From assembly GCA_025964215.1 (NCBI GenBank), contig JAOPZG010000160.1, positions 1 through 10,337 on the forward strand: 10,337 nucleotides of DNA, given 5' to 3'. Under the pieces are notes generated by a model. It searched no databases and was not told the origin of the DNA. It saw only the letters and a list, made by a program, of their open reading frames with translations. How positions within the stretch are numbered: position 1 is the first letter of the stretch; the number at the start of each line of letters is the position of its first letter. Made by a program: the position numbers and the translations under genes. This document shows positions 1,008 through 10,237 of this stretch, in pieces. This DNA is from Conexibacter sp. (GTDB lineage: Bacteria > Actinomycetota > Thermoleophilia > Solirubrobacterales > Solirubrobacteraceae).

Positions 1008-1313
1008 GTGGACCTCTACCAGCCCGCCCCCGAGGAGCTCGACCTCACCACGATCCTGCAGGCGCTCGGCGACCCCGTGCGCCTGAAGGTCGTCCGCACG
1101 CTCGCCGCGGGCGAGCAGGTCTGCGGGTCGATGGAGCTCGGGATCAGCAAGTCCACGCGCTCGCACCACTTCAAGACCCTGCGCGAGGCCGGCGTGACCG
1201 ACACCCGCGTCGAGGGCACGCACCGCTACGTCTCGCTGCGCCGCGACGACCTCGAGGCCCGCTTCCCCGGGCTGCTCGACGCCGTCCTGCAGGCCCAGCC
1301 CGCGCCGGCCTAG
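1008..1313 (+). CDS. ArsR-family helix-turn-helix transcriptional regulator
   Basis: Small winged-helix DNA-binding protein of 101 residues, the usual ArsR/SmtB size. The pattern LQALGDPVRLKVVRTLAAGE (about 18-36) is the family's first helix pair. The recognition helix region is SKSTRSHHFKTLREAGV (47-63), and the wing with HRYVSLRRDDL (72-82) follows. The only Cys is C39, and the CxC metal-binding motif of classical metal sensors is absent, so a metal-sensing role is not supported; ligand and targets are unknown. The GTG start at 1008 is preferred because a -10-like box lies just 7 nt upstream and no Shine-Dalgarno is visible, suggesting leaderless expression. Its TAG stop (1311-1313) lies within the same CTAG as the stop of the convergent prepilin gene. 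Confidence 0.9.
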   Translation: MDLYQPAPEELDLTTILQALGDPVRLKVVRTLAAGEQVCGSMELGISKSTRSHHFKTLREAGVTDTRVEGTHRYVSLRRDDLEARFPGLLDAVLQAQPAPA

Positions 1314-2878
1314 CCGACCGGCGCCTGCTCCGACTGGCGGAGCAGGTTCCAGGTCACGGTGACCGGGTCCAGGAAGTTCGGCGGCTCGCGATAGCGCAGG
1401 CGGTCGTCGTAGTTGTAGCTCTTGATGTAGCCGTTGACGGTGCCGTTCGAGCTCGTCTGCCCGATGATCCCGCGCCACTTCTGCGCGATCGCGCCCTTGA
1501 TCGTCAGGGTGCCGAGCGCCGCGCCGCACTTCGCGTTGTCGGCGAGGAACGAGCCCGTCGTCGCGAGGATCGCCGCGTCGATGTTGTTCACCCACGCCGA
1601 GGAGCCGAGCGCGTTGGTGGTGCAGTTGCCGTTGCTCCAGTTCACCGGGTGGTAGACGCGGACGAACTGGTTGGCCACGAGGCCCATGAGGCCGTCGCCG
1701 GTGTGCGTGAGGTTGCCGACGACGACGATGTCGTCCGCGGCGCCGATCGTGATGTTCTTGCTGTAGGTGCCCTTGACCCCGACGTCGCCGCAGTTGGACG
1801 AGTTGTTGTACTGCTGGGCGACGTCGTAGCCGGAGCAGGCGGCCTTGTTGGCGACCCAGATCGTCGTGTCGCCCGTGAGCGTCACCGTCGAGCTGGGCGA
1901 CCCCGCGCACGTGACGTTCGTGTAGACGCTCATCGTGTCGCCGGAGTTGAACTGCAGGCAGGTCGTGCCGCTGTAGGTGCGGTCGGCGACGCTGGCCAGC
2001 GCGGTGTTGCTCTCGGGCAGGTCCACCGACTTGGCCGGGAGCTGCACCGTGCCGTTCCAGTTCGGGTTGTTGCCGCAGCCGCCGCTCGCCACCGAGGCGT
2101 TGGCCTTGGTCGTGGCGCCGAGGATCTCGATCTTGTCCCCCGCGTCGCGGCCGAAGTCCGGGCTGTCGCAGACCAGGAGCGAGTCGTCCTCGGTGTGCAT
2201 CGGCCCGTTGATCGCGTCGCGGTCGGGGAACTGCAGGTCCTGGCAGCTCGAGCTGCGGGTCTTGCGGCCCTTGCCGCAGTTGGTCGACGCCCAGCTGATG
2301 TCGCTGTCGTCGTAGACCTGCGGCGACTGCGTCTCCCACTTCGTGTACCAGACGTAGTCCAGGAAGCCGGAGCGCCGGAACGTGCCGACGACCTGGCGCA
2401 GCTTGCCGTTGAAGCGGCCGGTCGAGCGGACGCGCAGCACGCCGTTGCTGAGCAGCTTGCTGCTCGGATCGGCCAGGCAGGCGGCGGTCGTGGTCGTCGT
2501 GGTCGGCAGCTGCTCGATCGCGAACTCGGCCGTCTGGTTCTTGGCGGTCGTGGTGTCGACGTCGGCGTCGGCGCCGGCGACCGGGCGCCACGAGGAGCGC
2601 GTGCCCTGGAGCTGGACGTAGGCCGGCGTCTTGCTGTTGTCGCCGCAGTAGGTCCAGTAGTTGGTGTCGCGCTGGAGCTGGTAGCTGTACCACTGCAAGC
2701 CGGCCTCGGCGGCCTCGTAGGCGCGCTTGCGGTCGGCGTCCTGTCGGCCGACCGGGAGGTCGTTGTTCGCGGCGCCCCAGGCGCCCACGGCGAACAGGCC
2801 GAGGATCGACATGGTGATGATCACCGTGATCATCGTGAAGCCGCTCTGGTCGGCCAGGGCCTTGCGATAGGAGCTCAT
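1310..2878 (-). CDS. PilX/GspK-like minor pilin, large and Cys-rich
   Basis: Predicted type IV pilus minor component, exported and anchored by an N-terminal prepilin helix. With the ATG at 2878 the product has 522 residues. A short leader ends at SG (12-13), followed by FTMITVIITMSILGLFAVGAW as the hydrophobic helix. Position +5 of the mature form is Thr18, not the usual Glu. YEAAEAGLQWYSYQL, just after the helix, is a recognisable PilX-type segment. The long exported part has 12 Cys, consistent with disulfides. It ends in a tail with AIAQKWRG, YNYDDRLRYREPPNFLDPV and WNLLR; I remember similar tails in Gram-positive prepilin-like proteins. The ATG overlaps the preceding stop as ATGA (2875-2878), favouring it over the GTG at 2887, which would add three residues. 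No clear Shine-Dalgarno is seen, so translational coupling is likely. It is the last gene of the three-gene pilus operon. Confidence 0.82.
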   Translation of the reverse strand: MSSYRKALADQSGFTMITVIITMSILGLFAVGAWGAANNDLPVGRQDADRKRAYEAAEAGLQWYSYQLQRDTNYWTYCGDNSKTPAYVQLQGTRSSWRPVAGADADVDTTTAKNQTAEFAIEQLPTTTTTTAACLADPSSKLLSNGVLRVRSTGRFNGKLRQVVGTFRRSGFLDYVWYTKWETQSPQVYDDSDISWASTNCGKGRKTRSSSCQDLQFPDRDAINGPMHTEDDSLLVCDSPDFGRDAGDKIEILGATTKANASVASGGCGNNPNWNGTVQLPAKSVDLPESNTALASVADRTYSGTTCLQFNSGDTMSVYTNVTCAGSPSSTVTLTGDTTIWVANKAACSGYDVAQQYNNSSNCGDVGVKGTYSKNITIGAADDIVVVGNLTHTGDGLMGLVANQFVRVYHPVNWSNGNCTTNALGSSAWVNNIDAAILATTGSFLADNAKCGAALGTLTIKGAIAQKWRGIIGQTSSNGTVNGYIKSYNYDDRLRYREPPNFLDPVTVTWNLLRQSEQAPVG

Positions 2879-3582
2879 GCGGAGCACGCCGTCAGGTCGG
2901 GGTCGGTGGGATCAGCGGTGGCGACGATGCCCTGGCCGCTGACGATGCTGCGGCTCGAGTCGCCGGTCTTCGTCCGGGCCGAGTTGGCCTGGAACTTGAC
3001 GCCGACGCGCACGATCTGGAGCTGGTTGGTCGCCGAGGGCGTCACGGGCGCGGCCTCGTTCACGGTGCCGTCGCTCGAGAACACGAAGTAGGTGAAGATC
3101 GGGTCGGTGCCCACCGGCTGGACGGCGTCGGTCAGCACCGTCGTGGTCGGCGTCGCGGCGAAGGTCACGTTGGGCAGCGCCCCGGCGCCGGCGTACTTGC
3201 TCTCCGTGAGCGTCTTCGCGGTGGCGTCGTAGGTGATGGTGTACTTGCTCGGGGTGTCCGAGGCGCCGCTGAGGTCGGCGTAGAAGGTGACCGACGTGCC
3301 GGTGCTCGACGGGCCCACGATCGGCGGGATCGCGGGCTGCGTCGTGCTGTCGCCCGAGTTGCGCAGGCAGACCTGGGAGTCGAGCAGCGTCGTGATCCGG
3401 TCCATCGCGATGCGGGCGCGCGAGCCGCTGTCGACGCGGTCGCCGATCTTGCTCGTCGCGGCGATGCCCGTCGTGAAGACGGTCATCACGGCCGTGAGGA
3501 CGAGCGAGCCGAGCGCCATGGCGACCAGCAGCTCGATCAGGGAGAAGCCGCGCTCGTCGCGCAGGCGCTCGCGGGCGGTCAT
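2875..3582 (-). CDS. PilW-like minor prepilin (N-terminal methylation motif)
   Basis: Minor (pseudo)pilin of 235 residues, probably part of a priming complex at the tip or base of a type IV pilus or a related secretion filament. A short basic leader ends with RG and is followed by FSLIELLVAMALGSLVLTAV, a textbook prepilin peptidase and methylation site: cleavage after Gly12, Phe13 as new N-terminus, Glu17 as Glu5. A polar region with SRARIAMDRITTLLDSQVC follows, typical of PilW/PulJ-type proteins, then a Thr/Ser-rich beta-type domain. There are two Cys, one after the N-terminal helix and one near the C-terminus (DLTACSA), which could pair. The start at 3582 overlaps the stop of the upstream gene as ATGA (3579-3582), and its own stop overlaps the next start the same way. 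Exact family within the PilW/PulJ/GspJ group is uncertain. Confidence 0.88.
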   Translation of the reverse strand: MTARERLRDERGFSLIELLVAMALGSLVLTAVMTVFTTGIAATSKIGDRVDSGSRARIAMDRITTLLDSQVCLRNSGDSTTQPAIPPIVGPSSTGTSVTFYADLSGASDTPSKYTITYDATAKTLTESKYAGAGALPNVTFAATPTTTVLTDAVQPVGTDPIFTYFVFSSDGTVNEAAPVTPSATNQLQIVRVGVKFQANSARTKTGDSSRSIVSGQGIVATADPTDPDLTACSA

Positions 3583-5060
3583 GCGGCGGCCTCGGCGGTG
3601 CCGTTGTCGACGCAGCTGCCCGTCCCGGTGGTGGCCTGGTTGACGACGGTCGGGTTCGCCATGTCCAGCGAGACGGCGGCCGTCGGGGCAGGCGTGCCGC
3701 CCGCCGGGGTGTTGTTGTACGGCGCGACCGGGCTCGTCGAGTTCTTGAAGAGGTAGTAGCTGCCGCTGAAGTCGATGCAGTACGAGTAGACGCCGTAGGG
3801 CAGGTCGTCGGTGAACGTCACGTCAGCGGCCTTGGTGGTGGTGTTCGTGATCGTGACGGTGGTGTTCGCCGCGGTGGCGTTCACGCCGGTGTTCGTCACC
3901 GCGGTGCGCCCGGCCGACTCGGTGCAGCTCGCCATCAGCGAGGTCGCCTTGTTGGCGTAGACGTTGAACCCGAGCGCCGCGTTCTTGGTGACGTTCGCGA
4001 TTTTGATCGACAGCTTGCGCATGTAGGCGGTCGCGGCGACGGTCGCGCCCGGCCCCGGCAGCACGGCCGACGCGGGGAAGGTCGTGGTGAAGGTGCTCTT
4101 GTAGAAGAGCGGGTTGTTGCCGACGCAGTTGCCCGAGTAGACCTGGTAGCCGGAGGAGAAGGGGAAGAGCGTCGTCGAGGTGTTGGTGATCGACGTCGCC
4201 GGCGTGCCGACGCTGCTCGAGCCCACGTAGTCGACCCCGAGGTTGCTGCTCACGCTGTAGCTCGTCCACAGCGGCCCCGTCGTCGCGTCGTCGCGGACGA
4301 ACGTGACCGGCGTGATCTTGGCCGCGACGTCGAGGAGCACCGTCTTGCTGGAGGCGTTGCCCTTGGTCACGACCGCCTGGTAGGAGCCGGTGCCGAGGCC
4401 CGTCGTCGCGACGTAGCCGCCGGCCTTGGCGTAGGTGGCGGTGTAGGTGCCGGGCGGGACGGCGAGGAACGCGACGCAACCCGCGGTGCTCGTGACCAGC
4501 GAGGAGCCGTTCATCGTCACCGTCGCGCCGGAGACGGGCAGGCCGCCGGCGGTCTGGACGGTGAAGACGAACGAGCCGGTCGAGTTGCTGACCTCGCCCG
4601 GGCGCGGGGCGAGCAGCGTCTCGGCGGTGACCGGCGCGATCGAGCCCATGCCGGGCCAGGTGACCGTCGAGGTCAGCCGGACGTACTGGCCGGCGTTGCC
4701 CGAGGCCGAGGTCGTGCAGCTGGAGAACGAGCCGACGGACGAGGTCCACTGCCCGGTCGTCGTGACGGTGTAGGTCCGGCCGTCGAGGCCGACGGGGGTC
4801 GCCGTCGTCGTGAAGTTGCTCGCCGTCGTGAACTTGGACTGGCGGACGCGGTCGAGCGCGGCGTGCGCGAGGTTCGAGGCGACGCCCTTGGAGCGCTGCT
4901 GGGACGACAGGTTCTGGGAGCCGTCGATCACCTTGAGCGTGCCGAGCGCGAGGACGATCACGAGCACGGCGCTGACCATGACCTCGATCAGCAGGAAGCC
5001 GGCCTCGCCGGCGACCCGGCGGGGCGTGGAAGGTGCGGGGCGACGGGAGCTGCCGGGCAT
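3579..5060 (-). CDS. PilV-like minor prepilin fused to a carboxypeptidase-regulatory-like domain
   Basis: First gene of the pilus operon; 493 residues from the ATG at 5060. A Pro/Arg-rich leader ends at Gly21 and is followed by FLLIEVMVSAVLVIVLALG, a clear class III-type prepilin signal with Glu26 as Glu5. The segment LAHAALDRVRQSKF after it resembles PilV. Residues about 160-245 (TGSFVFTVQTAGGLPVSGAT through AFLAVPPGTYTATY) look like a carboxypeptidase-regulatory or Cna-B-like beta-sandwich, a fold common in surface proteins. The remaining 250 residues are Thr/Ser/Asn-rich and probably all-beta. At roughly 490 residues it is far longer than classical PilV proteins (under 200), so an adhesive or presenting role is possible (inference). 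The start choice rests on ATG with GGGAAG shortly upstream; an adjacent in-frame GTG at 5063 is an alternative. The frame stays open upstream across the ROK gene, but that extension is antisense shadow. Confidence 0.85.
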   Translation of the reverse strand: MPGSSRRPAPSTPRRVAGEAGFLLIEVMVSAVLVIVLALGTLKVIDGSQNLSSQQRSKGVASNLAHAALDRVRQSKFTTASNFTTTATPVGLDGRTYTVTTTGQWTSSVGSFSSCTTSASGNAGQYVRLTSTVTWPGMGSIAPVTAETLLAPRPGEVSNSTGSFVFTVQTAGGLPVSGATVTMNGSSLVTSTAGCVAFLAVPPGTYTATYAKAGGYVATTGLGTGSYQAVVTKGNASSKTVLLDVAAKITPVTFVRDDATTGPLWTSYSVSSNLGVDYVGSSSVGTPATSITNTSTTLFPFSSGYQVYSGNCVGNNPLFYKSTFTTTFPASAVLPGPGATVAATAYMRKLSIKIANVTKNAALGFNVYANKATSLMASCTESAGRTAVTNTGVNATAANTTVTITNTTTKAADVTFTDDLPYGVYSYCIDFSGSYYLFKNSTSPVAPYNNTPAGGTPAPTAAVSLDMANPTVVNQATTGTGSCVDNGTAEAAA

Positions 5061-5109
5061 CACTTCCCGTAGGTCGGCAGTACCAGGCTTCAGATGTAGC
5101 CCTCGTCGT

Positions 5110-5294: not shown

Positions 5295-6509
5295 ATGGGT
5301 CATGAGGGATCCGGATCGCTCGAGTCCCTGCGCGAGCGAAACCGCAGGAGGGTGCTGAGCGCACTCCGCGTCGCAGGGATCACCAGTCGCGCCGAGCTTG
5401 CTCGTCGTACGGGCCTGTCCCGCACCACGGTCTCCTCGCTGATCGGCGACCTGGTCCGCGACGGCCTCGTCGCCGAGCGCGTCGACCACACTGCGGCGCC
5501 CGGCGCCCAGGGCGGCCGGCCGCCGGTCCTCGTCTCGCTCGATCGCCGCGCCGGCGCCGCCGTCGGCGTCGACTTCGGCAAGTCCCATGTGACGGTGGCT
5601 GTGGCGGACCTCGGCCATACCGTCCTCTCCGAGATGCGCCGCGAGCTGCCGAGCGACCACCGGGCCGAGCAGGGCCTCGAGGCCGCCGGCGGGCTCGTCG
5701 AGGCCGCGCTCAGCGAGGCGGGCGTCGATCGCAGCTGCGTCCTGGGCGTCGGCATGGGCCTCCCGGGCCCGGTCCACGCCGACACCGGCACCGTCGGCTC
5801 GACCTCGATCCTCCCCGGCTGGGTCGGCATCGCGGCCGCCCGCGCGATGAGCGATCGCCTCAGCCTGCCGGTCCGCGTCGACAACGACGCCAACCTCGGC
5901 GCGCTCGCCGAGCACGTCTGGGGCGCCGGCGAGGGCGTCGACGACATGATCTACCTCAAGCTCGCGACCGGCATCGGCGCCGGCATGGTCCTCGGCGGCC
6001 GCCTCTACGTCGGCGTCGGCGGGACCGCAGGCGAGATTGGCCACACGATCATCGACGAGCACGGCCCCGTGTGCCGCTGCGCCAACCGCGGCTGCCTGGA
6101 GACGCTCGCGAGCGGCGCCGCGACCGTCGAGCTCCTCCGCCCCACGCTCGGCGACGACCTCACGCTCAGCCGCGTCGTCCAGCTCACGCTCGACGGCCAC
6201 CCGGCCGCCACGCGCGTCGTCGCCGACGCCGGCCGCCACATCGGCCGCGCCGTCGCGAACCTCGTGAACCTGCTCAACCCGAGCCGGATCGTCGTCGGCG
6301 GCGAGATGGCCGCCTGCGGCGACGTCCTGCTCGACCCGCTGCGCCAGGAGTGCCAGCGCCACGCGATCTCCAGCGCCGGCGACGACGTCGAGATCCACCA
6401 TGGCCCGCTCGGCGACCGCGCGCAGGTCCTCGGCGCGCTCGCGCTCGTCCTCCAGGACGCAGAGACCTTCTCCACGCCCGTCGACCACCTCGCCGAGGCC
6501 CAGGCGTGA
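5295..6509 (+). CDS. ROK-family transcriptional repressor (NagC/XylR type)
   Basis: Sugar-responsive repressor of 404 residues, the normal length for ROK proteins with a DNA-binding head. Residues 9-62 form a winged helix (SRAELARRTGLSRTTVSSLI as the helix-turn-helix), and GGRPP (73-77) marks the link to the ROK domain. VGVDFGKSHVTVAVADLG (90-107) is the phosphate-binding motif and DNDAN (196-200) carries the catalytic-type Asp198. GEIGH with His250, then Cys260, Cys262 and Cys267 (CRCANRGCLE), form the zinc site. The intact sugar-kinase motifs mean sugar binding is likely, while kinase activity cannot be judged. It starts the sugar importer operon, with the binding-protein gene 54 nt downstream, so it probably represses that operon until the sugar is present. 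The ATG at 5295 has no close Shine-Dalgarno; AGAGGG ends 11 nt before it, so the start is somewhat uncertain. Confidence 0.92.
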   Translation: MGHEGSGSLESLRERNRRRVLSALRVAGITSRAELARRTGLSRTTVSSLIGDLVRDGLVAERVDHTAAPGAQGGRPPVLVSLDRRAGAAVGVDFGKSHVTVAVADLGHTVLSEMRRELPSDHRAEQGLEAAGGLVEAALSEAGVDRSCVLGVGMGLPGPVHADTGTVGSTSILPGWVGIAAARAMSDRLSLPVRVDNDANLGALAEHVWGAGEGVDDMIYLKLATGIGAGMVLGGRLYVGVGGTAGEIGHTIIDEHGPVCRCANRGCLETLASGAATVELLRPTLGDDLTLSRVVQLTLDGHPAATRVVADAGRHIGRAVANLVNLLNPSRIVVGGEMAACGDVLLDPLRQECQRHAISSAGDDVEIHHGPLGDRAQVLGALALVLQDAETFSTPVDHLAEAQA

Positions 6510-6563
6510 GACCAACTTCCCTCAATCCCTGTCCCCTGCACCTCGAGGAGGAGCGTGCTTTCC

Positions 6564-7700
6564 ATGCGTAGTTCGAAGTGGGTGTCGGTCATCGCGGCCG
6601 GAGCCCTCACGTTCGGCGTTGCCGCCTGTGGCAGCAACAACGACAACAAGAGCAGCTCGAGCGGAAGCTCGAGCTCGACGACGGCGGCCAGCAGCGGCGC
6701 CAAGAGCGGCAAGATCGCTCTGCTCCTGCCGGAGTCGAAGACGGCCCGGTACGAGTCCCAGGACCGGCCGAACTTCGAGCGCAAGCTCAAGGAGATCTGC
6801 CCGGACTGCCAGGAGATCTACTCCAACGCAGACCAGGACGCGTCCAAGCAGCAGCAGCAGGCTGAGGCTGCTCTGACGCAGGGCGCCAAGGTGCTCGTGC
6901 TCGACCCGGTGGACGCCGCTTCGGCCGCTGCCATCGTGACGCGCGCCGCCCAGTCGAAGGTCCCGGTCATCTCGTACGACCGGCTGATCAGCAACTCGAA
7001 GGTCGCCTACTACATCTCCTACGACAACGCCAAGGTCGGCAAGTTGCAGGCGACGAGCTTGGTCGACAAGCTCAAGAAGGACGGCAAGACCTCCGGCCCG
7101 CTCGTGATGATCAACGGCGCGCCGACGGACAACAACGCCAAGCTCTTCAAGGAGGGCGCGCACAGCGTCCTCGACAAGAGCGGCTTCAAGATCGCCAAGG
7201 AGTACGACACGCCCGACTGGTCGCCCGACAAGGCGCAGTCGGAGATGGAGCAGGCCATCACGGCGCTCGGGAAGACCGGCTTCGTGGGCGTCTACTCGGC
7301 CAACGACGGCAACGCCGGCGGCATCGTCGCGGCGATGAAGTCCAACGGCGTCGACCCGACCAAGATCCCGATCACGGGTCAGGACGCGGAGCTCGCCGGC
7401 GTGCAGCGCATCGTCGCCGGTCAGCAGTACATGACGGTCTACAAGGCCATCAAGCCGGAGGCGGAGATCGCCGCCACGCTGGCCGTCGACCTGCTGCAGG
7501 GCAAGAAGCCCGACGCCAGCTCGATCAACGTCCAGACGCCCAACGGCAGCGCGGGCCAGATCCCGTCGGTGATCTTCGATCCCGTCGCGGTCACGGTCGA
7601 CAACATCCAGAGCACGATCGTCAAGGACGGGTTCTGGAAGGCCTCGGAGATCTGCACCGGCCAGTACGCTGCCGGCTGCAAGGCTGCGGGCATCCAGTAG
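6564..7700 (+). CDS. xylF: XylF-like sugar ABC transporter substrate-binding lipoprotein
   Basis: Extracytoplasmic sugar-binding protein of 378 residues in the periplasmic-binding-protein class B (ribose/xylose) family. The signal peptide MRSSKWVSVIAAGALTFG ends in the lipobox VAAC, with Cys22 as the lipidated residue. A Ser/Thr/Asn-rich linker (23-50) spans the wall-proximal zone before the fold begins at KIALLLPESKTARYESQD. Segments typical of xylose-binding XylF are VPVISYDRLI, FVGVYSANDGNAGG and TGQDAELAGVQRIVAGQQY. Four Cys occur beyond the lipid Cys: one pair at 79/82 and another pair near the C-terminus. The ATG at 6564 is preferred over the GTG at 6555 because GAGGAGGAG (6545-6553) lies 10 nt upstream and would be too close to the GTG. 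Xylose is the best substrate guess, but no xylose catabolic gene is present to confirm it. Confidence 0.93.
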   Translation: MRSSKWVSVIAAGALTFGVAACGSNNDNKSSSSGSSSSTTAASSGAKSGKIALLLPESKTARYESQDRPNFERKLKEICPDCQEIYSNADQDASKQQQQAEAALTQGAKVLVLDPVDAASAAAIVTRAAQSKVPVISYDRLISNSKVAYYISYDNAKVGKLQATSLVDKLKKDGKTSGPLVMINGAPTDNNAKLFKEGAHSVLDKSGFKIAKEYDTPDWSPDKAQSEMEQAITALGKTGFVGVYSANDGNAGGIVAAMKSNGVDPTKIPITGQDAELAGVQRIVAGQQYMTVYKAIKPEAEIAATLAVDLLQGKKPDASSINVQTPNGSAGQIPSVIFDPVAVTVDNIQSTIVKDGFWKASEICTGQYAAGCKAAGIQ

Positions 7701-7734: not shown

Positions 7735-8508
7735 ATGGCAGAGACCACGCCCCTGTTGGAACTGAGGGGCATCACCAAGAGGTTCGGCGCAGTACGAGCG
7801 CTGAACGGCGTGGACTTCCGGGTCATGCCCGGCGAGGTCGTTGGCCTCGTCGGTGACAATGGCGCCGGCAAGTCGACGCTCGTCAAGGTCATCTCGGGCA
7901 TCCACCCGGCTGATGATGGTGAGTACCTGTGGGATGGGAGCGCCGTGAGCGTGAACACCCCGCAGGACGCCACGGGCCTGGGGATCGCGACGGTCTACCA
8001 GGACCTGGCGTTGTGAGACAACCTCGACGTCGTCGAGAACCTGTTCCTCGGACGGGAGGCCATCGCTGGTGGCCTCCTGGACGAGGTCACCATGGAGAAC
8101 AAGGCCAACGAGCTGTTGGCCGAGCTGTCGGTCACGACGATCCAGTCCGTTCGCGGCGAGGTCGGGGCCATGTCCGGCGGCCAGCGGCAGTCCGTGGCGA
8201 TCGCCCGATCGCTGCTGGGCGAGCCGAAGATGGTCATCCTGGACGAGCCGACCGCGGCCCTGGGCGTCGCCCAGACCGCGCAGGTCCTGGCGCTGGTGAA
8301 GCGGCTCAAGGCCCGCCAGCTCGGCGTCATCGTCATCTCCCACAACCTTCGCGACGTCTTCGACGTCTGCGACCGCATCTTCGTCATGCGCCTCGGCGCC
8401 GACGGCGGCGAGTTCGACGTCGCGACCGCCAACGAGCAGGACGTCGTCGCGGCGATCACGGGCCTCCACGCCAACGGCGGCAAGCCGCAAGGAACGGTGA
8501 CCAAGTGA
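7735..8508 (+). pseudogene. Sugar ABC transporter ATP-binding protein, interrupted by in-frame TGA
   Basis: Single-domain ATPase of a carbohydrate importer, 257 codons from ATG 7735 (AGGGAG at 7721-7726, 8 nt upstream) to TGA 8506-8508. Domain order is complete: Walker A GDNGAGKST (40-48), Q-loop Gln89, signature MSGGQRQ (146-152), Walker B VILDEP (167-172) and H-loop His203. Codon 94 (8014-8016) is TGA between VYQDLAL and DNLDVVENLFLGRE; I remember relatives having Cys there. The frame is unchanged across it, so a single base change from TGC or TGT would explain it. Peptides split at this point separate Walker A from the signature motif, so neither half should work alone. ATG 8092 with GAGG 5 nt upstream could restart translation. 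The first 93 codons use more A/T-ending codons (about 13) than the rest. It is marked as a pseudogene on form; recoding or sequence error remain open. Single-domain ATPases differ from the tandem-domain XylG of E. coli. Confidence 0.85.
8014..8016 (+). other. In-frame TGA replacing a probable Cys codon
   Basis: The triplet interrupts the ABC ATPase just after the Q-loop. Six nt later there is a perfect hairpin CTCGAC-GTC-GTCGAG (8023-8037). The reading frame and codon bias continue normally behind it. See the findings for the interpretations. Confidence 0.9.
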
Positions 8509-9749
8509 GCACGACCGAGGCCCCCACCCCGCCGCCCGCCGAGCCGGAGACGGAGGCCGCGGCCCAGAAGGAGTCGCTGCCGACCTCCGCCCGGGACTTC
8601 CTGAACCGGATCCGCACCGGCGACCTCGGGTCGCTGCGCGTGCTGGTCCTGCTGGCGATCGTCTGGGCGATCTTCCAGTCGCAGGAGTCGCGGTTCCTCT
8701 CCTCGACGAACATCGTCAACCTCTCGTTGCAGATCACCGCGGTCGCGCTGATCTCCGTCGGCGTCGTGCTGGTGCTGCTGCTCGGCGAGATCGACCTGTC
8801 GGTCGGCGCCGTGTCCGGCGTGACCTCCGCGATCGTCGCGGTGCTGAGCGTCAAGCACGGCTGGGCGCCGGTCCCGGCGATCCTCGCGGGCGTGCTCGCG
8901 GGCGCGGCGATCGGCATGTTCCAGGGCTTCATCTCCACGAAGTTCGGGATCCCAACGTTCGTGGTCACGCTTGCCGGGTTGCTGGGCTGGCAGGGCCTGC
9001 AGCTCAAGGTGCTCGGCGAGACCGGCACGGTCAACCTGCTGCCCGGGCTGCTCACCGACCTGGCCGGCAAGTTCCTGGCCGACAGCGTCGGCTGGATCGT
9101 CGCGATCGTCGCGGTGGTGCTCTACGGGCTCGCGACGCTGCGCGGCCGGATGAAGCGCGTGAGCGCCGGGCTCAACGCGCCGTCGATGCTGCTGGTCGGC
9201 ATCCGGATCGGCGCGGTCGCGGTCGGCGGCCTGCTGTTCGTCTACGTCGTCAACAAGGACCGCGGCGTGCCGATGGCCGTCGTCATCCTGCTCGCCTTCG
9301 TGGCGGCCTTCGACTTCTGGACGCGGCGCACGAAGTTCGGGCGCCACATCTACGCGGTCGGCGGCAACATGGAAGCGGCTCGCCGTGCGGGCATCAACGT
9401 CTTCCGCGTCCGTGTCGTGGTGTTCTCGCTGGCGTCCGCCATGGCGGCGGTCGGCGGGATCATGGCGGCGTCGCGGCTGCTGGCGGTGAACCAGTCGAGT
9501 GGCGGGTCCGACCTGCTGCTGAACTCGATCGCGGGTCCGGTCATCGCGGGCACGTCGCTCTTCGGCGGTCGCGGCAACGTGTGGTCCGCGTTGTTGGGTG
9601 CCTTGGTCATCGGCTCGATCTCGAACGGCATGGACCTGCTGGCCTACACGTCGGCGACGAAGTTCATGGTGACAGGCGCGGTGCTGCTGGGCGCGGTCGT
9701 CCTGGACTCCGCGGCGCGCATGGGGCGCGCGGCGTCGGGGCGCGTGTAG
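8505..9749 (+). CDS. xylH: XylH-like sugar ABC transporter permease
   Basis: Membrane channel subunit of a ribose/xylose-class importer (BPD_transp_2 family), 414 residues. A hydrophilic, Pro/Glu/Ala-rich N-terminal tail of about 45 residues precedes the first membrane helix (LRVLVLLAIVWAIF). LLLGEIDLSVGAVSG (92-106) is the family signature. About nine to ten hydrophobic helices follow, and the cytoplasmic loop GRHIYAVGGNMEAARRAGIN is the conserved coupling region that docks on the ATPase. LFGGRGNVWSALLGALVIG near the end is also typical. The GTG start at 8505 overlaps the ATPase stop as GTGA, and AAGGAA (8489-8494) lies 10 nt upstream. The frame is open further upstream, but only as a shadow of the ATPase gene. 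It is the last gene of the operon, with a strong terminator 34 nt after the stop. The intact gene argues that the importer is still under selection or was until recently. Confidence 0.93.
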   Translation: MSTTEAPTPPPAEPETEAAAQKESLPTSARDFLNRIRTGDLGSLRVLVLLAIVWAIFQSQESRFLSSTNIVNLSLQITAVALISVGVVLVLLLGEIDLSVGAVSGVTSAIVAVLSVKHGWAPVPAILAGVLAGAAIGMFQGFISTKFGIPTFVVTLAGLLGWQGLQLKVLGETGTVNLLPGLLTDLAGKFLADSVGWIVAIVAVVLYGLATLRGRMKRVSAGLNAPSMLLVGIRIGAVAVGGLLFVYVVNKDRGVPMAVVILLAFVAAFDFWTRRTKFGRHIYAVGGNMEAARRAGINVFRVRVVVFSLASAMAAVGGIMAASRLLAVNQSSGGSDLLLNSIAGPVIAGTSLFGGRGNVWSALLGALVIGSISNGMDLLAYTSATKFMVTGAVLLGAVVLDSAARMGRAASGRV

Positions 9750-9818: not shown

Positions 9819-9974
9819 GCGTTTGTGGTGCCCAGCGCGTTTGCGGTCGGGGTGCGACGGCGTGGTCCGCCGTCACCGAGGGGAGTGAGGCGGGGTCGGT
9901 GGTGCGCGGCGCCTGGGGTCGTCCGCCGGCGCCGGGGCGCGGGTGGCTCGCGCGTCTCGCCGGCCTCCCCGCGG

Positions 9975-10023
9975 GGTTCGGGTCACTTCGGACGTCCATA
10001 TGACGCTCGAAGTGACCCGGATC
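9975..10023. repeat. Internal hairpin 1 of the inverted-repeat element
   Basis: The perfect 12-bp stem CGGGTCACTTCG (9979-9990) pairs with CGAAGTGACCCG (10008-10019). It continues inward through one wobble and one mismatch to CGTC/GACG, with a CATAT tip. Outward, wobble and standard pairs extend it to about 9975 and 10023. Confidence 0.8.
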
Positions 10024-10035
10024 GCTCGTGCTCGG

Positions 10036-10084
10036 GGTCCGGGTCGTCTCGGGCTCCAATATGGAGCCCAATCCGACCCGGATC
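10036..10084. repeat. Internal hairpin 2 of the inverted-repeat element
   Basis: The outer stem TCCGGGTCG (10038-10046) pairs with CGACCCGGA (10074-10082). A 4x4 internal loop follows, then the inner stem GGGCTCCA/TGGAGCCC (10051-10058, 10062-10069) with an ATA tip. Its outer stem shares the GGTYCGGGTC...GACCCGGATC frame of hairpin 1. Confidence 0.8.
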
Positions 10085-10237
10085 TCGCAACCTGCCGTTC
10101 GGCCCCGATCGCCCGCCTTGGCGCCTGCGGACGACCCCGGGCGCCGCGCACCACCACTTCCGCCTCACTCCCTCGTTGACGACGGACCCCGCGGCGCACG
10201 CCGACCGACGCCCGCTGCTCACCACAGGCGCTTGCGG

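Follow-up and report, generated by a model that had tools for sequence, protein, structure and literature searches.

The stretch of DNA analysed here (the window, 10,337 bases) raises the question of why a gene for the ATPase of a sugar ABC importer, with undamaged genes on both sides, carries a TGA codon inside its own reading frame. An earlier note on this DNA had offered four readings of the codon, namely a very recent nonsense mutation, a sequencing or assembly error, stop readthrough and the insertion of selenocysteine. The features on which the argument depends are the following, where G001 and G006 are two genomes of the same genus.

5295..6509, plus strand: gene for a ROK-family regulator, intact
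6555..7700, plus strand: gene for a xylF-like sugar-binding protein, intact
7735..8508, plus strand: gene for a single-domain, xylG-like sugar ABC ATPase with one internal in-frame TGA (orthologs in G006 at 89% and G001 at 88%)
7852..7878, plus strand: Walker A, GDNGAGKST, 5' of the TGA
8014..8016, plus strand: the in-frame TGA, codon 94; TGC (Cys) in both close orthologs
8092..8508, plus strand: ORF of 138 amino acids opened by an in-frame ATG 75 bases 3' of the TGA, a possible reinitiation start; lacks Walker A
8170..8184, plus strand: ABC signature, MSGGQ, 3' of the TGA
8230..8247, plus strand: Walker B, MVILDE, 3' of the TGA
8341..8343: H-loop His, in the same frame as Walker A, the signature and Walker B
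8505..9749, plus strand: gene for a sugar permease, intact; the best model is GguB, under its cut-off

The ATPase frame runs from the ATG at 7735 to the TGA at 8506-8508 and would encode 257 residues if the TGA at codon 94 were read through. The earlier note had described the frame as unbroken around the internal stop, and this holds: the segments that we take to be Walker A, the signature, Walker B and the H-loop all lie in one frame. The third-position G/C bias likewise persists past the stop, as had been claimed, with a GC fraction of 0.851 upstream and 0.945 downstream. The lower value of the pre-stop part (7735-8013) falls below the range of 0.941-0.973 seen across the remaining operon. 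The Pfam ABC_tran domain is present in two pieces that flank the TGA, with profile positions 1-68 matched by the pre-stop half and 77-137 by the post-stop half.

The best NCBIfam models for the ATPase are those of importer ATPases for xylose, galactofuranose and ribose, which span 492-513 positions and were all matched far under their cut-offs. The two xylose ATPase models (500-513 positions, against 257 for the protein) gave 216.6 of the 699 bits and 202.2 of the 723.65 bits required, and we therefore call the protein xylG-like rather than XylG. Proteins annotated as "D-xylose transport system ATP-binding protein" in Baekduia and its relatives share the family, the operon order and the motifs with the window copy, at protein identities of up to 99%, but have Cys where it has TGA.

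The ATPase gene is accompanied by genes for a sugar-binding protein and a permease, and the gene order is the same in G006 and G001. Identities to these two genomes are 93-95% for the ROK regulator, 76-79% for the binding protein, 84-95% for the two ATPase halves and 86-87% for the permease. The putative GTG start of the permease, which we infer at 8505, shares bases with the ATPase stop (GTGA), an arrangement also found in G006 and G001. In agreement with the earlier description of the neighbours as undamaged, the regulator, binding-protein and permease genes contain their terminal stop codons only.

Two further observations concern other parts of the window. Nested inverted repeats are located 3' of the permease gene (9881-10172), with arms of 59 nucleotides that are 86% complementary (9881-9939 and 10114-10172) and that enclose two adjacent hairpins, themselves direct repeats of 52 nucleotides. 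A search of the window against Rfam, these repeats included, gave no matches at the gathering score. On the minus strand at 1310-5100, three consecutive frames begin with the N-termini GFTMITV, GFSLIEL and GFLLIEV, which we take to be prepilin-like, perhaps a minor-pilin cluster.

The residue found at codon 94 in other genomes is central to the interpretation. The earlier note had placed Cys at this position, and this was correct: when aligned, both G006 and G001 have TGC, and these are the only close copies of the ATPase among the seven genomes of the genus. The other ATPase loci, distant paralogs included, comprise 18 with TGC, seven with Ala, two with Val and one each with Ser and Phe, and none of the 29 has a stop at codon 94. 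Two loci with one TGA each, G014:C258 (residue 253 of 256) and G036:C314 (residue 245 of 249), are probable natural gene ends. Among the best 120 of 7974 homologous proteins, Cys is present in all, and three of these are 98-99% identical to the window protein. Since genes with internal stops are under-represented among predicted full-length proteins, this tally alone cannot prove that TGA is absent elsewhere. The organism names listed for the 120 homologs are mostly Baekduia sp. (from 93% identity downward), with one Conexibacter sp. at 91%, which suggests that the window may come from a Baekduia.

Fragments and nucleotide motifs give a similar picture. Of 109 N-terminal fragments, 99 span codon 94, with Cys in 89, Ala in seven and Ser, Phe and Val in one each. 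None of the 109 ends at the TGA, a result of little weight, as the 93-residue ORF of the window is itself absent from the list. One of the fragments, P0122 (87 residues, 97% identical, on a contig of 1048 bases), terminates six residues before the TGA site; its end may be that of the contig or a stop of its own. The exact C-terminal fragment of 138 residues was found on a single contig, of 10337 bases, the length of the window, and the next match among the best 120 of 235 is 89% identical. Across 396 genomes of the phylum, the motif with TGC or TGT has 37 matches (36 with TGC and one with TGT) spread over 35 genomes, the window's own not among them, whereas the motif with TGA occurs in one of the 396, which is that genome. 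A scan of genome_contigs, which perhaps does not cover this genome, gave one match to the TGA motif, in Pseudalkalibacillus hwajinpoensis; it lies within an ORF of 360 residues on the opposite strand, and we rejected it as an unrelated gene.

The gene shows few traces of time spent under a stop codon. With codon 94 set aside, all 93 residues that precede the stop are identical to those of P0002, the closest intact protein, and two of the 163 that follow it differ (residues 195 and 233); the window residue at 233 matches P0003 and P0005-P0007. We infer that the base change is either very recent or not real.

The reading that we favor, with a probability of about 0.94, is a single very recent substitution of a Cys codon to TGA that is private to this genome and not recoded; we give roughly equal odds to a genuine nonsense allele and to a base error in the fragmented draft. 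The first two of the four readings first offered are thus supported by the private nature of the TGA, the Cys in the orthologs and the lack of decay. The selenocysteine reading is not supported, in view of a site that is not a conserved Cys and of the absence of a hairpin that fits the bacterial SECIS (bSECIS) model in the form considered below. For readthrough, we saw no positive evidence.

The window is a complete contig (C70) of a 3.43-Mb draft assembly with 674 contigs that is 65.0% complete. Within this assembly, one of 70 ABC_tran matches contains an internal stop, which is the codon-94 case itself, and none of 62 adh_short matches does. Stops are not scattered throughout the assembly, and it is not generally noisy. 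This low stop frequency weakens the base-error branch and leaves the nonsense branch unaffected. One incorrect base in an assembly of 3.4 Mb would be nothing out of the ordinary. Private nonsense mutations and in-frame stops caused by base errors both occur in draft assemblies; they involve one base change in one genome and a gene that is otherwise intact, and we found no feature in which the present case differs from them.

In mechanistic terms, one base change would have turned codon 94 from Cys to TGA in one assembly. If the change is real, translation would end after 93 residues, retaining Walker A and losing the signature and Walker B, so that the importer would be left without its ATPase; as judged from the sequence, the gene would then probably be a null allele. 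Given the overlap between the start of the permease gene and the ATPase stop, the TGA, if real, would probably also have a polar effect and lower the translation of the permease.

Among the alternatives, leaky or programmed readthrough of the UGA, or reinitiation at the ATG at 8092 to give an ATPase in two pieces, survives best, although we consider it improbable. Reinitiation has in its favor an in-frame start a short distance past the stop. Yet the two pieces would part Walker A from the signature and Walker B, and the structure around the TGA is unremarkable, with z-scores of -1.36 (8005-8064) and 0.20 (8014-8053). Furthermore, the stop is kept by no other genome examined, and so nothing indicates that selection has acted to maintain it.

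Slightly less probable still is the hypothesis that the gene is an older, decaying pseudogene. The substitution rates seem at first to favor it, with a dN/dS ratio for the window copy of about 0.30-0.32 after the stop and 0.11-0.18 before it. In the comparison with G006, dN is 0.053 and dS 0.467 before the stop, and 0.097 and 0.306 after it (codons 95-245); with G001, the corresponding values are 0.072 and 0.407, and 0.089 and 0.299. The intact pair of G006 and G001 nevertheless follows this pattern as well (0.20 after, 0.11 before), with a dN of 0.022 and a dS of 0.211 before the position of the stop, and 0.040 and 0.195 after it. As the post-stop ratio is higher in all three pairs, its elevation largely reflects the gene itself, although the post-stop ratio of the window copy is somewhat higher than that of the intact pair. 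Neither a frameshift nor a second internal stop was found in 7735-8508, further disabling changes or relaxed selection are not apparent, the adjoining genes are intact, and the near identity to P0002 likewise speaks against an old pseudogene.

The hypothesis that codon 94 is read as selenocysteine, by SelB and tRNA-Sec via a SECIS hairpin after a recent replacement of Cys, is very unlikely in our view. In its favor, the TGA is placed opposite a Cys of the homologs, and the genus decodes selenocysteine. SelA was identified above its cut-off in four of the seven genomes and SelB in the same four, while tRNA-Sec was found in five of the six relatives, one gene each in G001, G002, G003, G005 and G006, all confirmed with ARAGORN, which reclassified two of the seven tRNA-Sec model matches in the relatives as tRNA-Ser. 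In G001, a formate-dehydrogenase-like gene with an in-frame TGA, selA, selB, a selD-like ORF and tRNA-Sec are located close together (G001:C1:894500-909500; L063, L071). The TGA of this gene lies in the context NQARI-U-HSSTVPGLGTSFGRGG, and we read the two ORFs as FdhA and SelD.

The machinery was not recovered from the window's own assembly, which at 65% completeness limits each of these results: a family search did not find SelA, SelB gave matches below the cut-off only (the best at 102.8 of 242.25 bits), and tRNA-Sec was not found. One tRNA-Sec model match above the cut-off in this assembly (49.2 bits) was identified as tRNA-Ser by ARAGORN. The three genomes without SelA, this one included, are the three least complete of the seven. 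The sel region of G001 matches the assembly through one flanking gene at 72% identity, which has different neighbors and is perhaps a paralog, and through stretches of at most 114 bases.

In the available portion of its description, the bSECIS model requires a loop of 3-9 nucleotides with a G in the first two positions, a stem of 4-16 base pairs, a spacing of 16-37 nucleotides and an energy of at most -7.5 kcal/mol (PMC13188914). As a subset of the known bacterial elements does not fit this model, the test is not absolute (PMC13188914). With the model in this form, the FdhA site of G001, our positive control, fits (loop GGTCT, 7 base pairs, 18 nucleotides, -13.9 to -32.0 kcal/mol), whereas no hairpin after the window TGA does so at any fold length tried; the site in the TGC orthologs of G006 and G001 is also without a fitting hairpin. 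Of the operon's 1376 codons, 711 fit the same model by chance, which makes the test permissive in GC-rich RNA, and so the failure of the window TGA carries weight.

The comparison with known selenoproteins leads in the same direction. Selenoproteins with Sec/Cys pairs, such as FdhA of G001, share an in-frame TGA with the window gene, where it likewise stands opposite the Cys of homologs, but the window gene is without a fitting SECIS, without a second TGA-bearing homolog among the sequences examined and without a conserved redox Cys, since 11 of the 29 other loci encode Ala, Val, Ser or Phe at the site. The Sec-containing ABC subunits named in the available text are substrate-binding and permease proteins (SaoX, SaoB, SaoP), with no ATPase among them (PMC13188914). 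In the Sargasso Sea study, as far as its available text extends, TGA cases known from single sequences were treated as candidates only, even with SECIS-like structures, because a sequencing error can create an in-frame TGA (PMC1088965); the window TGA is without such a structure. As improbable as the selenocysteine reading itself is the idea that a sugar ABC ATPase of this Sec-decoding genus has only just acquired a codon for Cys-to-Sec replacement or readthrough and has yet to evolve a SECIS of its own.

Our findings are best accounted for by an ordinary, private and very recent single-base change, real or erroneous at roughly equal odds, that has little significance on its own. They also illustrate that a lone TGA opposite a Cys does not warrant a selenoprotein label, even within a Sec-decoding genus, unless it is accompanied by a SECIS element and a second sighting.
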